Origin: Halorubrum ezzemoulense DSM 17463
GTDB taxonomy: Archaea > Halobacteriota > Halobacteria > Halobacteriales > Haloferacaceae
DNA: 34,937 nucleotides
Direction: 5' to 3'
NCBI RefSeq assembly: GCF_002114285.1
Contig: NZ_NEDJ01000034.1
Coordinates: 1-34,937, forward strand
Part shown: positions 1,632 to 6,912 of the stretch, one piece after another
Numbering within the stretch: position 1 is the first letter of the stretch
Layout of the letters: each line of letters opens with the position of its first letter
Position numbers and translations under genes: made by a program
The notes under the pieces: generated by a model
Told to the model about the DNA's origin: nothing
The model's input: only the letters and a program-made list of their open reading frames with translations
Database searches by the model: none

Positions 1632-3209
1632 TCACCGCGGCGCGCGCCGAACTAGGAATAGCGTCGCGAGGACGATCCCGACGAGCGCCGCGAGCCCCGC
1701 GAGGTCGCTGAGATCGAACTCGGACAGCTCCGGACTCGACCCGCCGCCGTCGTCCGCCGATCCCGGTGCTCCATCGTCGCCGTTCCCTACTCTGTCTCCG
1801 GCGTCAAACTCGGTTCCATCGTCGCCCGAGCCCTCCGCTTGATCCGTCACCGTGACGGATCCGAGGATCGGACCGTCCCCAGTCGCTCTCGTCCTGACCG
1901 CCTCGCCCGCGAGAACGAGGTCGTACTCCCCCGGCTCACTGAACCGAACCGTCACCGACTCGGTCGCCGTCGCGCCCGGGCCGATATCGACCGCGACCGC
2001 TTCGTCGCCCGCGACCGCCTCGGCGTCGGCAGTCTCGACCCGGATCGTCTCGTCCCTTGCGGGGGCCGGCCCGCGGTTCTCGATGTCGACCGCGACCGTC
2101 AGGGGCTCGCCAGGCGCGACCTCCTCGTCGGAGAGGTTCGTCTCGGTCGGGGCCAGCGCCGGGCGCTCGGCCGCGACCGCGAACGCGGAGAACTCCTCGG
2201 TGGCGGCCCGCAGCCTGACCGTCTCGCTCCCCTCGTCGACGACGCGCATCTCGGCGCGCTCCCAGCCCGTCTCGGTCTCGCGGTAGGCGGCGACCCGCTC
2301 GGGGGCGACCCCGGCCGCGGCGAGCCGGTCGCGGTCCACGACGATCTCGGCGGTCGCCTCCGCGACCGGCTGGCCGGGCTCCGCGAACTCGACCGCGTAG
2401 TACCCGAGGGGGTCGACGCCAGGCGGTGGCGGCGGCGCCTCCGCAGGCCGGTCGCTCAGTCCCCGCACCGCGAACTCGACGTCGCCGGGCGACTCCCGGA
2501 CGAACGTCAGCCGGTCGAGCCGGATCGCGGGGTCGCCGACGCGGAGCCCCCGCAGGTCGACCGCGGTCTCGTCCCCGCCGACGACCGACCGGAGCGTCAC
2601 CTCTCGGACGCTCGGGGACGCGCGAGCGACCGAGACGATCGGGTCGGTGGTGAGGCTCGGGTCGTCGGCCTCGCCGCCGTCGCCGCTCGGGTTCTCTCCG
2701 TAGGGCGGTTCCTCCGGCTCCGCGGCTCTAGCGTGGACCGATATCTCGTCGATGAGTCGGTCGCCCGGGACGACCCCGGCGACGCGGGTGTCGATCCGGA
2801 CGCCTACCGGGACGGCGTCGTTCTCGGGCGTGAGCCGCGCGGCCCGCTCGGGGCTCTCGACCGGCTCGCCGTCGACGACGAAGGTGACGCCCGTGCCCTT
2901 GTGTTCGATCCACGCCTCGGCGGTCGCGTTCCCGTCGTAGGTGATATAGAAGAGCGCCTCTTGGGCGGCGAACGCGCCGACGTTGACCCCATCGTGTTCG
3001 ATTCGGGGGTTGTCCTCGGTGATGTCGATCGCGAGTTCGCCGCCTTCGTCGAGGTATGCGTAGGGGTTGTCGCCGGGCTGGAGAGCGACGTCGTCGGTGA
3101 TGGGATCGATGGGTTGATACAAGACGACAGCGCCGGTGGAGACCGCGAGGAGGACGGTGACCGCAACGGCAGCGAGCGCGAGGAAAGAGGTCGATGCTCG
3201 GGACGACAT
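1632..3209 (-). CDS. Exported surface protein with PGF-pre-PGF-like and CARDB-like domains
   Basis: This 525-residue protein is probably exported and anchored. A hydrophobic N-terminal segment (residues ~8-31) is followed by a DUF1102-like beta region (~35-165, including AYLDEGGELAIDITEDNP). A Pro/Gly/Asp-rich linker follows. A PGF-pre-PGF-like stretch around 290-350 ends in EEFSAFAVAAERP. A CARDB-like beta domain around 360-440 contains VDIENRGPAP. An acidic Ser/Gly/Asp linker leads to a C-terminal membrane helix (~505-522) followed by RRAPR, a sorting-signal-like architecture. The ATG at 3209 was chosen because the hydrophobic segment begins just after it; the in-frame start at 3239 would only add a short charged extension. 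It lies beside two further exported proteins on the same strand. The domain names are pattern-based; the ligand and role are unknown. Confidence 0.8.
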   Translation of the reverse strand: MSSRASTSFLALAAVAVTVLLAVSTGAVVLYQPIDPITDDVALQPGDNPYAYLDEGGELAIDITEDNPRIEHDGVNVGAFAAQEALFYITYDGNATAEAWIEHKGTGVTFVVDGEPVESPERAARLTPENDAVPVGVRIDTRVAGVVPGDRLIDEISVHARAAEPEEPPYGENPSGDGGEADDPSLTTDPIVSVARASPSVREVTLRSVVGGDETAVDLRGLRVGDPAIRLDRLTFVRESPGDVEFAVRGLSDRPAEAPPPPPGVDPLGYYAVEFAEPGQPVAEATAEIVVDRDRLAAAGVAPERVAAYRETETGWERAEMRVVDEGSETVRLRAATEEFSAFAVAAERPALAPTETNLSDEEVAPGEPLTVAVDIENRGPAPARDETIRVETADAEAVAGDEAVAVDIGPGATATESVTVRFSEPGEYDLVLAGEAVRTRATGDGPILGSVTVTDQAEGSGDDGTEFDAGDRVGNGDDGAPGSADDGGGSSPELSEFDLSDLAGLAALVGIVLATLFLVRRAPR

Positions 3210-3381
3210 TAAATATAATGATCTATCTCGAGGTACCAAAGTAATCGGTCCTCAATTAGGCATCGAGCAGTGGCCTCGTATTATAAACTATATATACTTA
3301 TCAATCAACATATGTATACTCGACAAGAGGATCAGATCACGACGGAACGCGTCTCATCGTCAGCCGAAAATTAAAATTCGG
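3210..3381. promoter_or_regulatory. AT-rich intergenic segment, likely promoter region of the surface-protein gene
   Basis: This segment is far more AT-rich than its surroundings and contains several TATA-like stretches (for example 3280-3304 and 3210-3220). The 3280-3304 box read on the minus strand could serve the gene starting at 3209, with a leader of about 50 bases. No Shine-Dalgarno sequence is visible. Confidence 0.4.
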
Positions 3382-4013
3382 TTAGGAGACGGCACCGGGC
3401 TCGACCGTCAGCGACGCGGTGAAGAAGTCCCCGACGTCGCCACTATAAGAGTTGACGACAAATGAAACACCTAACGCGTCGCCAGGATCGAGTTCTAGTG
3501 ACGGTGCTGCGGTCTGGTCTGGATACCGAACTCCGGACAGTTTCTCGCTCGAATCATGGATTTCGAACAGGAATCTCGTGTGACCGGCATCCGAGCTGTT
3601 GCTGGTCAGATCTAAGGTGAAGGTGATACTCATCGTGCTATCCGTCTGGTTTGATATCAGGAAAGGCGATTCGAAGTCGTCGGTACTGGCACCGACCGGA
3701 TTGCTCGTCGTTTCCAACGTGGACCAATCCGGCGTCACCTTGGGATACGTCTCAGTGAGGTAACCGAACTGGTAGATAGAGTTGACATTAACTCCCGGAT
3801 CGGCGATGGAGATCGATAACTGGCCGTTGTCAGCTTTAGTAACGCCGGCAGCCTCATTGTTCGGAATCAGAGCGACGAGGCTTTGCGAGTCGCTGACGAC
3901 TGAGATGTTTGCGTCTCGGTTCATTGAGCAGGGGTAAATGCTCCAGTTCCGAGCGTTGCGCTGCCGCCCGTGACAGTCGCACTCAGTCCGAGGAGAAGTT
4001 TTATTCGTTTCAT
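3382..4013 (-). pseudogene. Frameshifted exported protein (signal peptide separated from mature domain)
   Basis: Read on the minus strand from the ATG at 4013, 30 codons give a start with two basic residues, a hydrophobic stretch and the export-type ending GTGAFTPAQ, followed by TGA. The TGA overlaps an ATG at 3924 that opens a 180-residue beta-rich mature domain in another frame. Adding one base near 3925 would join the two. It would also place Arg and the SLV triplet at the same distances after GTGAFT as Arg and AYL in the neighbours at 4227-5021 and 6052-6912. The simplest reading is one gene with a single-base deletion, either true decay or a sequencing error. An ATGA-coupled pair is formally possible but would leave the mature part without a signal. 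AT content is above that of the flanking genes. Confidence 0.72.
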
Positions 4014-4226
4014 TAGTGTTTCAGACGGCTATCCAAGTTGTGATAGAATCTTCCGTACGTCCTCCACTCATTATCGTAACTCCTTGCCGCGCAACTGACT
4101 CTCGCTTTGCCGTGAATCGGAGTTGTCCCACCGTTTTCAGACTTTGTGGGTGGCAGCGTATCGAAGTGAAAAGTGGAGCCGTCAACAGCGTAGCCGCGTG
4201 CTGTCGAAGGCTACTTGAGCGTGTAA

Positions 4227-5021
4227 TTATTCCACGCCGGGATCTGCCGCCTCGTTGGCGCTGATGACGAGTTCCTCAGCTAGCAAGGTACCAGCACCCG
4301 TCTCGCCACCAGTCGTGTCCACTTGGATTGAGACGTAGACCGACTCGCCCGGAGGGATTGCCTCGTCTTGCGGATTTCCGTTGTTGAAACTCAGAGCCTC
4401 AGTTGCCTCGTCTTTTTCAGGGCTATCGTCCTCGTCGTTTAGGTCAAGTTCCGAAGTGTTCGTCGCGGTCGCACCATCAAGCTGGCTATCGGCGCCGCTT
4501 CCGCTGATAGCGGTCGCCTTCCCCTGTAGGTACACTGTCGCGTTAGTATTCGAGCTGGAAGTATTCAGTCCGATCTCAATATCGAGCGTTTGTCCGCTCT
4601 GATTACTGAGGACGAAAGCCGACTGATCCACAGGAGGAGACACGTTAGCGGTAGCGAGCGGCTCGCCTTCACCCTCAGCAGCCGGGGTGGTGTTTGAGTC
4701 GAAGAGACTCTCAAAGTCGATACCATCTCCAGTCGCGCCATCGTTCATCGCGCCGAGTTGGTACCGTGAGTCATCGTTAACACCAGATCCGCTCGCATCC
4801 TCATCAAAATCAATGTACAGCTCGCCGCCTGATTTGCCAACCCTATCTCCGACACCACGGGCGCCACCGGCATTAAGCTGGAGGTAGGCGTTACTGTCGT
4901 TCTGAACCCCGATGTCCGCAGTACGCGGCACCGTTGCTGCGGTAAATGCCCCAGTCCCTGTTGCGGCTGCCCCGCCGGCAGCGAGCGATCCGAGTCCGAT
5001 CACGAACTTGCGCCGTTCCAT
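4227..5021 (-). CDS. Exported DUF1102-like protein with Tat-type signal
   Basis: This 264-residue protein begins MERRKFVIGLGSLAAGG, a twin-arginine-like motif (RRKFV) followed by a hydrophobic segment and GTGAFT at residues 22-27. The mature part is rich in Asn, Ser, Thr, Asp and Gly, is predicted to be mostly beta, and has no cysteine or C-terminal anchor. AYL at 45-47 and the SGVN- and ISIQVDTTGG-type strands resemble DUF1102-family haloarchaeal proteins. The ATG at 5021 is preferred over the in-frame start at 5033 because GGTGAG lies about 8 bases upstream, a good Shine-Dalgarno sequence. Base composition is less GC-rich than neighbouring housekeeping genes, hinting at different origin or selection. 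A filament or envelope role is inferred only by analogy with TasA/camelysin-like secreted proteins. Confidence 0.83.
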   Translation of the reverse strand: MERRKFVIGLGSLAAGGAAATGTGAFTAATVPRTADIGVQNDSNAYLQLNAGGARGVGDRVGKSGGELYIDFDEDASGSGVNDDSRYQLGAMNDGATGDGIDFESLFDSNTTPAAEGEGEPLATANVSPPVDQSAFVLSNQSGQTLDIEIGLNTSSSNTNATVYLQGKATAISGSGADSQLDGATATNTSELDLNDEDDSPEKDEATEALSFNNGNPQDEAIPPGESVYVSIQVDTTGGETGAGTLLAEELVISANEAADPGVE

Positions 5022-5026
5022 GTCGT

Positions 5027-5034
5027 ATCTCACC
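5027..5034 (-). promoter_or_regulatory. Shine-Dalgarno sequence deciding the start of the DUF1102-like gene
   Basis: AGGTGAG on the minus strand lies about 8 bases before the ATG at 5021. Clear Shine-Dalgarno sites are rare in this window, where most starts look leaderless. Confidence 0.6.
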
Positions 5035-5055
5035 TGTGTTCACGCACCCTCGCAG

Positions 5056-5074
5056 CCCGGCCGTCCGGGCCGGG
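5056..5074. promoter_or_regulatory. GC-rich hairpin in the leader of the DUF1102-like gene
   Basis: CCCGGCC (5056-5062) pairs with GGCCGGG (5068-5074) across a 5-base loop. It lies about 35 bases before the start codon at 5021, in the likely 5' leader, so it could affect translation or stability. It could also be incidental in GC-rich DNA. Confidence 0.4.
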
Positions 5075-5164
5075 AGCGCTCGGATAACCCATACGGGGCA
5101 TGGTACTTCGTTATGAAATTCTCGACACGATCACGCGCTGGGCTCGATGACGCGACATGAGCGC

Positions 5165-5203
5165 CTCGATACGGATCGACCGCTCTTCGCGGCCCGTATC
5201 GAG
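5165..5203. promoter_or_regulatory. 10-bp inverted repeat in the divergent intergenic region
   Basis: CTCGATACGG (5165-5174) and its exact reverse complement CCGTATCGAG (5194-5203) are separated by 19 bases. They lie between the divergent exported-protein gene and the wHTH regulator operon. An operator for the adjacent wHTH protein is a reasonable guess. Confidence 0.45.
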
Positions 5204-5353
5204 CTGACCTTGAATCCGACGTGGAGACGCTGAAGCTGGCACCTGAAGCGCTCGCCGCGTCTCGAACACTACCTGAATACACGCGAGGACTCCGCTCCGC
5301 GGTTCAACCGTCTCTCGAGGAACCGACGAGCCGAACGTTTTCTCATCACCTTT

Positions 5354-5361
5354 CTTAAATT
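5354..5361 (+). promoter_or_regulatory. TATA box of the wHTH operon
   Basis: CTTAAATT is centred about 29 bases upstream of the ATG at 5387, which fits a leaderless start there. Confidence 0.5.
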
Positions 5362-5386
5362 AACAAGTTAATTATCCAACCTGTTT

Positions 5387-6055
5387 ATGATAGATACAAT
5401 CACACATACAAGTGAATATCGCCGGTTCGCGGGAGGGGCCGACCGGCGCCTAATTAGGGTGCTCACACCGATGCTCTCTACAACTCCGACACGCGAGACG
5501 GGTCAGAACGGAGGTGAACTGTCCGAAGACGAGGTCTTCGAAGTCCTGTCGAACAGACGACGCCGCTTCGTCATTCACGCGCTCAAGCGGGCGGAAGGCC
5601 CGATCGAGGTCTCCGAACTCTCCACGCACGTCACCGCGTGGGAACACGATATCGACCCGACGGACGTCAAGTACGAGGACCGCCGAAACGTGTACAGCAC
5701 CCTTCAGCGCACGCACCTGCCGAAGTTAGAGGAGGTGAACGTGGTGACGGTCGACGACGAGGCCAACCTCGTCGAGCCGACACCCGAGCTGGAGAGCCTC
5801 GACATCTACGTCGAAGTCCTCCGAAGCAGGGAGATCCCGTGGAGCCTCTACTACGTCGGGCTCGCGGCCCTCGCCGCCTCGCTCCTCCTCGCCGTCGTCA
5901 CGGGGACACCGGGATTCGCCGGGCTGGAGGCGCTCGACGTGGGGGTGTTCACTGCCACCGTCTTCGGGATCTCCTCGGTGGCCCACCACGTCATCGGCCG
6001 CAGGACGCGCTTGGGGAACACCGAGAAACCCCCCGAACTCCGCCGCCGAGAATGA
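5387..6055 (+). CDS. Membrane-anchored winged-helix regulator (DUF7344-like)
   Basis: This 222-residue protein has a winged-helix domain at about residues 44-120. Its recognisable core is LSEDEVFEVLSNRRRRFVIH, then ELSTHVTAWE and YSTLQRTHLPKLEE, typical of the haloarchaeal DUF7344 group. Two hydrophobic segments follow (about 156-172 and 184-203), and then a basic tail. This suggests a DNA-binding domain tethered to the membrane. The ATG at 5387 is supported by the TATA box at 5354-5361. The ATG at 5471 (194 residues) gives a more family-like short N-terminus and remains possible. Its stop overlaps the next start (ATGA), so the two are probably cotranslated, and it may regulate the exported proteins on both sides. 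Regulation is inferred from position only. Confidence 0.82.
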   Translation: MIDTITHTSEYRRFAGGADRRLIRVLTPMLSTTPTRETGQNGGELSEDEVFEVLSNRRRRFVIHALKRAEGPIEVSELSTHVTAWEHDIDPTDVKYEDRRNVYSTLQRTHLPKLEEVNVVTVDDEANLVEPTPELESLDIYVEVLRSREIPWSLYYVGLAALAASLLLAVVTGTPGFAGLEALDVGVFTATVFGISSVAHHVIGRRTRLGNTEKPPELRRRE

Positions 6056-6912
6056 ACGTCGCTACGTCGCCGTCGACCCGCGTACGGCCGCTCCGCGCGC
6101 TGAGCATCGCGCTCGCGTTCGCGGCGGCGACCGGGCTGATATTCGGCACCGCCGGGTTCACCGCGATGGAGGCCAACCGCGGGCTCGCGGTCAACGTCAC
6201 CGACGACGAGCGCGCGTACCTCGGCTCCGCGCCGCTCGCCGACGAAGTCCGCGACGGAGAGCTGACGGCAGTCGTCGAGTACCGCAACCGGTTCGGGAGC
6301 GGTCTCGACGACATCGACGTCGACGTATCGATCGCGCCGTCCGGATCGCCACGTGCGACGATCGAGTCAGTCGACTCCCCCTCGTCGCTCGACGAGGGCG
6401 CCGCCGCCGCGGTCGACGTCACCCTGCGCTGCCCGGTGCGGGAGCAAGTCCCGCTCGTCTTCGAGGTCGACGGGAACGGCGGCGGGGTGAGCGTCTCGCT
6501 CAGCCGCGTCCACACCGTCACATGCGTCCCGACGAGCCCGATGGTGACCGGCGTCCGGTACGCGGGCGTCGGGAACGCCTTCGTCGAGGCGGGCGGGGAA
6601 CGCGCGACCGTCGAGGCGACCGTTTGGCTCACCGACTCCGTCCCGGGTGCGAACGGTTCCGAGGGGAGTCTCCGGTCCGAAACTGTCGCGAGCCTGAATC
6701 CGTCGAGTCCAGTGCGGCCGCAGCTATCGACTAACGCGTCGAACGAGCGGATCGTCGGCGTCGCGTTCCCCGAGCAGGGGGTCGCGTACTTCCACCCGGG
6801 GTGGAACGGAGCGAACCACGTCGCTCCGAGAGAGGGCCCCGGCGTCAGACGAACGGGGGTTCCGCTCGACGCCGAAACCGTCCGGAACACGTCCGTCGTC
6901 GAGGACGAGTGA
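6052..6912 (+). CDS. Exported protein of the GTxxFT/AYL group
   Basis: This 286-residue protein has a basic N-terminus with RVRPLRAL, a hydrophobic segment at ~18-31, GTAGFT at 32-37, Arg at 43 and AYL at 55-57. These distances equal those in the DUF1102-like protein at 4227-5021. The mature part is beta-rich. It contains two cysteines (in RCPVRE and TCVPTSP) that could form a disulphide outside the cell, and it has no C-terminal membrane anchor. The ATG overlaps the stop of the wHTH gene, so it is the second gene of that operon. It ends 7 bases before the convergent beta-CASP gene. No enzyme motif is visible, and a structural or envelope role is the likeliest guess. Confidence 0.8.
   Translation: MNVATSPSTRVRPLRALSIALAFAAATGLIFGTAGFTAMEANRGLAVNVTDDERAYLGSAPLADEVRDGELTAVVEYRNRFGSGLDDIDVDVSIAPSGSPRATIESVDSPSSLDEGAAAAVDVTLRCPVREQVPLVFEVDGNGGGVSVSLSRVHTVTCVPTSPMVTGVRYAGVGNAFVEAGGERATVEATVWLTDSVPGANGSEGSLRSETVASLNPSSPVRPQLSTNASNERIVGVAFPEQGVAYFHPGWNGANHVAPREGPGVRRTGVPLDAETVRNTSVVEDE

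Follow-up and report, generated by a model that had tools for sequence, protein, structure and literature searches.

What does a haloarchaeon make of three exported proteins that share one N-terminal code and surround a membrane-tethered winged helix-turn-helix (wHTH) regulator? The window that we analysed, 34,937 nt long, is the whole of contig C83 (NZ_NEDJ01000034.1) in the 155-contig genome of Halorubrum ezzemoulense DSM 17463, and we consider it likely that the cluster of this Halorubrum-type haloarchaeon encodes a surface fibre of the Tat-fimbria ('tafi') type in a reduced form. What sequence comparison contributes to this explanation are the homologies, the gene order, the clade, the leader and the missing local peptidase. 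Read directly, the code is GTGAFT-AATVPR...AYL in the product of 4227-5021, GTAGFT-AMEANR...AYL in that of 6052-6912 and GTGAFT-PAQ(x)NR...SLV in that of 3382-4013 after joining. All three exported proteins, with the joined gene counted, carry an Arg at +6 and an AYL or SLV triplet at +18 after the T, as the original prediction had described for this group around the tethered wHTH. Shuffled ORFs of the window gave 0.005 loose and 0 strict matches per window, which excludes chance as the origin of the code. Of 135 motif ORFs in the named relatives, the Arg stands at +6 in 120, and 124 lie within 3.5 kb of the wHTH, against a base rate of 48%. The G+C content is 54-61% at 3001-6000, which covers the fimbrial genes and the intergenic region, against about 70% elsewhere.

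The gene at 4227-5021 (minus strand) encodes a TafE-like fimbrial subunit with a twin-arginine signal, MERRKFVIGLG...GTGAFT. It matches NCBIfam TafE at 1.8e-9 over residues 1-53, far under the curated cut-off, and all 25 of its homologues match the same family (best 1.5e-22). Six of the 25 match DUF1102 (Pfam PF06510, best 3.6e-9), and the DUF1102-like kinship proposed earlier is borne out in the relatives. The protein alone also matches a solved structure, PDB 9p0a 'Pilin', at 5.3e-6, and a profile of the 25 homologues does so at 1.3e-27 over positions 1-182 of 212. Its own structure model is beta-rich and poor (pLDDT 62), and Foldseek with this model gave no confident fold match, the best E being at least 0.024, with a weak match to CanA at E 0.028.

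A second TafE-like subunit gene at 3382-4013 (minus strand) is frame-broken after the signal, and has KR where the first subunit has RR (MERRKFVIG). Its 30-codon signal ORF (4013-3921) ends in GTGAFTPAQ and a TGA stop, which overlaps, as ATGA, the start codon (ATG at 3924) of the mature part, 180 codons long (3382-3924). Thus, the product that had been predicted "after joining" does carry the code once joined, but it is not one open frame. The break may be a sequencing error; against this, the gene is frameshifted in a related locus (L029) and absent from two more (L024 and L026), which makes a genuine break plausible, while the gene is intact in L022, L027 and L028. In L024 (5000-5969) and L026 (4700-5731) the anchor discussed below is missing together with the second subunit, and an inositol-monophosphatase-like gene, which in the window follows the anchor (329-1192), comes straight after the first subunit.

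The larger protein at 1632-3209 (minus strand) is probably the membrane-anchored base subunit that holds the fibre to the cell, since it combines a signal and a subunit-homologous, DUF1102-like domain with CARDB, a C-terminal hydrophobic helix and an RR tail. Its relation to the three exported proteins, noticed earlier, is borne out by the N-terminal domain, which aligns with the subunit profile (hhalign) at 1.5e-15 over 163 columns. Pfam finds CARDB at 7.9e-5 and DUF1102 weakly, at 0.0057 (17.3 bits against a gathering cut-off of 22.2). Its paralogue in another locus of the genome (L019, contig C10), 35% identical and in the same gene order, matches CARDB at 5.8e-9 and DUF1102 at 3.3e-7 (31 bits, above the cut-off). 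Between anchor and peptidase, this C10-type locus encodes a multi-helix membrane protein (L019:351-1271, minus strand) that has no Pfam match.

On the opposite strand, the longest ORF from 5387 contains a DUF7344 winged-helix protein with two C-terminal membrane helices (5471-6055, plus strand), which matches Pfam DUF7344 (PF24035) at 1e-25 (90.3 bits against a gathering score of 27.8) and is 36-37% identical to the wHTHs of the genome's other two taf-like loci. We found no literature on DUF7344. The wHTH stop overlaps the next start by four bases (ATGA), an overlap kept in relatives, and both this coupling and the two membrane helices agree with the original prediction; its start at 5387 does not, as 5471 is probably the true one, because the ATG at 5387 is part of a conserved TATA-like box, TTTATG (5384-5389). 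This box closes a promoter-like block, TTAACAAGTTAATTATCCAACCTGTTTATG (5360-5389, plus strand), which joins an imperfect palindrome to it ahead of the wHTH-TafC transcript and is conserved in the alignment of the window's clade. A perfect palindrome as operator was considered and is a weak candidate, with perfect arms only in the window and L028.

A scan with the genome's three wHTHs gave 80 named loci (L022-L101) from many haloarchaeal genera, and 63 of the 80 contain motif proteins. The usual order is peptidase, anchor and one to three subunits on one strand, with wHTH and TafC divergent on the other. The gene set is therefore conserved in many genera, and an occurrence in this genome only is excluded. 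This survey also bears on a rival explanation, that the wHTH serves a wider regulon and sits here by linkage only. DUF7344-like proteins occur in 288 of 292 haloarchaeal genomes, often with 11 scored per genome, and four wHTH loci (L054, L084, L087 and L094) have no fimbrial neighbours; since these proteins are near universal in the class, a wHTH by itself is no marker. Against a wider regulon stand the linkage kept in those 63 loci and the start/stop coupling of the wHTH with TafC. We regard it as rather unlikely, and it would be compatible with a fibre in any case.

The gene coupled to the regulator (6052-6912, plus strand) encodes a TafC-like exported protein. It matches NCBIfam TafC at 1e-17 over residues 20-159, far under the curated cut-off, and TafC is matched by 24 of its 24 homologues (best 3.6e-23). 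Its structure is modelled as two Ig-like beta-sandwich domains (pLDDT 82.6), and its profile has only the N-terminal region in common with the subunit profile, at 3.6e-13 over about 85 columns. Judged by this limited profile similarity, the common element is the signal and the first strands and not one whole fold, and a common jelly-roll for all three proteins, named earlier as the support to look for, is not supported. Fimbrial chaperones (CfaA, Caf1M and CsuC) are among the top Foldseek matches of the TafC model, with E from 3e-4 to 1e-2 and target TM of 0.32-0.37, but similar scores go to sialidases, complement C3 and adaptin ears, and we make no claim of a chaperone. The signal of TafC in the window's clade lacks the twin arginine (PLRALSIALAFAAATGLIFGTAGFT), whereas C10-type TafC begins with MKRR; given the RR on the subunit, TafC may be exported by another route than the subunits.

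Two other contigs of the genome hold relatives of this arrangement. Contig C76 (L020) has a canonical taf locus, with TafA over its cut-off (219.7 bits), DUF7344 and TafC, and with an S26 signal peptidase that is divergently oriented. Contig C10 repeats the order and orientation of the window with an anchor, two TafE-like genes, DUF7344 and TafC; two further TafE-like genes lie on contig C123. Adjoining the canonical locus, the protein of L020:8151-9545 has a TTGSFT-like signal end, an YVAYDGAGELRL segment, a long G/D/S-rich repeat and C-terminal membrane helices, and is possibly an anchor of a different make. As noted earlier for SipW-type enzymes, no Sec11/SipW-type signal peptidase lies beside the window's module; the genome has a full gene elsewhere, in C76, and a second one in C10 that the contig end truncates. 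The tree places the window on one branch (SH-aLRT 100) together with 21 loci, which come from Halorubrum, Halobellus and one MAG; in this 22-locus clade, every locus that could be assessed lacks a local peptidase. A peptidase is present elsewhere in nine of the nine genomes of the clade that were searched, and so it is probably supplied in trans to window-type loci. Both locus types occur together in 13 organisms among L022-L101.

Haloarchaeal genes are often leaderless, and it is thus notable that the first subunit gene has a conserved 5' leader (5022-5097, minus strand), in which a GC-rich hairpin is followed by the Shine-Dalgarno-like AACACAGGTGAGAT and then the ATG. An alignment of 21 loci gives 14 consensus pairs, three with double-sided changes, a modest covariation; the case for the hairpin comes from this alignment, its stability being not unusual for its composition (z -1.25). 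The leader has no match in Rfam. At the same place, loci of the C10 type have another hairpin, which is longer (L019 4539-4625, minus strand), so that two fimbrial-locus clades have distinct conserved hairpin leaders before their first subunit gene, neither with an Rfam family. Such a leader could raise the subunit to a high level.

These data also bear on a second rival, in which the locus once encoded a fimbria and is now a decaying remnant: its peptidase and second subunit have been lost, erosion goes on and little function is left. The broken frames of the window and L029, the losses in L024 and L026 and the missing peptidase of the whole clade fit such a history, and with its second subunit gene broken the locus may indeed be partly decayed. 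On the other side, almost every locus of the clade has kept regulator, signal, leader and first subunit open and conserved, the leader pairs are kept through changes, and the regulators are 61-86% identical to the window's across species, all of which speaks for selection and makes a mere remnant unlikely.

What has changed within the clade is the subunit itself. For pairs of loci with a wHTH identity of 80% or more, mean identity is 85% in the subunit signal and 37% (range 21-91) in the mature part, and regulator and mature-subunit identity are hardly correlated (0.21); in the clade, regulator and signal are conserved while the mature subunit falls to 21-50% identity. The closest subunit is that of L029 (68%), although the window's regulator is nearer to those of other loci, which suggests that subunit genes have been replaced. 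In L023 (4900-6706), a displaced wHTH-like fragment adjoins a subunit gene with a truncated signal, an arrangement that suggests a trace of recombination between fimbrial loci. The remaining rival, a general set of envelope proteins that do not polymerise and share only an export signal and processing site, is quite improbable: the TafC-like/subunit similarity confined to the signal region and first strands and the poor subunit model would suit it, but the conserved code runs 20 residues beyond the cleavage region, the subunit profile follows the solved pilin over positions 1-182, and the anchor has the full mature domain of the subunit.

We therefore return to the fibre, an idea already present in the original prediction and strengthened by the TafC and TafE family matches, DUF1102 in relatives, the solved pilin and the neighbourhood in many genera; against it we count that the Taf matches of the window's proteins lie under the equivalog cut-offs and are mostly N-terminal, that the subunit model is poor and gives no confident fold match, and that the second subunit gene is broken. 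In the mechanism that we propose, the subunit of 4227-5021, and formerly that of 3382-4013, would be exported folded via the Tat pathway, cut near GTGAF|T by the Sec11/SipW-type peptidase encoded at another taf-like locus, and polymerised outside the cell. The strand by which each subunit would engage the next, through strand exchange, is probably the conserved segment that follows the signal (R-x-x-x-[VI]...AYL). The protein of 1632-3209 would hold the fibre to the cell through its subunit domain, CARDB and membrane helix, and the TafC-like protein, probably exported by Sec, would act as initiator, tip or chaperone-like partner. The DUF7344 wHTH would be seated in the membrane, made with TafC from one coupled message, and its neighbourhood suggests that it switches the divergent subunit/anchor operon; we infer this control of the fimbrial operon from position.

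The comparison shows that one genome can carry several tafi-type loci in parallel, and that in one clade of them the peptidase has gone and the subunit has diversified while its signal stayed fixed. If our reading is right, it would explain varied haloarchaeal surface fibres under constant control and export, propose a cell anchor for tafi-type fibres, and make the membrane-tethered regulator, which may sense the assembly of fibres, open to test. It is tempting to speculate further, and quite tentatively, about a dual-export fibre (Tat for the subunit, Sec for TafC, a peptidase supplied by a sister locus) in which one subunit gene after another takes its place behind an unchanging head of promoter, leader and signal. 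Species and strains would then differ in their fibres, with a single tethered regulator reading TafC or the fibre state, in an archaeal surface-variation system perhaps driven by fibre-binding viruses.

How does the cluster compare with known systems? TasA/camelysin and the archaeal bundling pili (AbpA) combine SipW/Sec11-type cleavage with beta-rich subunits, a logic that the window's cluster has in common with them. The kinship with TasA and camelysin that had been proposed is not supported: no member among the 25 of the subunit family matches Pfam camelysin/TasA at E<=1, so that there is no sequence-family match, and no fold match was obtained with the subunit model. The membrane HTH regulators of the archaellum, ArnR and ArnR1 (PMC13286277), resemble the wHTH in joining an N-terminal HTH to a membrane helix beside a surface-appendage system, but they belong to a different family, and their kinase control is not evidenced for the wHTH. 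The PDB 9p0a pilin has the same RR signal and GTGAF site, and the profile covers nearly the whole subunit, while the window's protein alone aligns over only about the first 90 residues. The nearest system is that of the Tat-fimbriae of haloarchaea, with TafA, TafC and TafE (NCBIfam NF052520-22), as attributed in PMC12687288 to Galeva et al. (2025, iScience 111793). As in the genome's canonical locus, TafC- and TafE-like proteins adjoin a DUF7344 gene, and the GTGAFT Tat signal is alike. In contrast, the window's proteins stay below the TafA/TafC/TafE cut-offs (64.3 bits for a cut-off of 410 and 37.6 for one of 155), with no TafA-level match and no local peptidase, and the cluster has a divergent gene order, a CARDB anchor, a non-RR signal on TafC and a diversified subunit. 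The tafi-type system has thus been known since 2025, and the locus in the window is a distinct variant of it.
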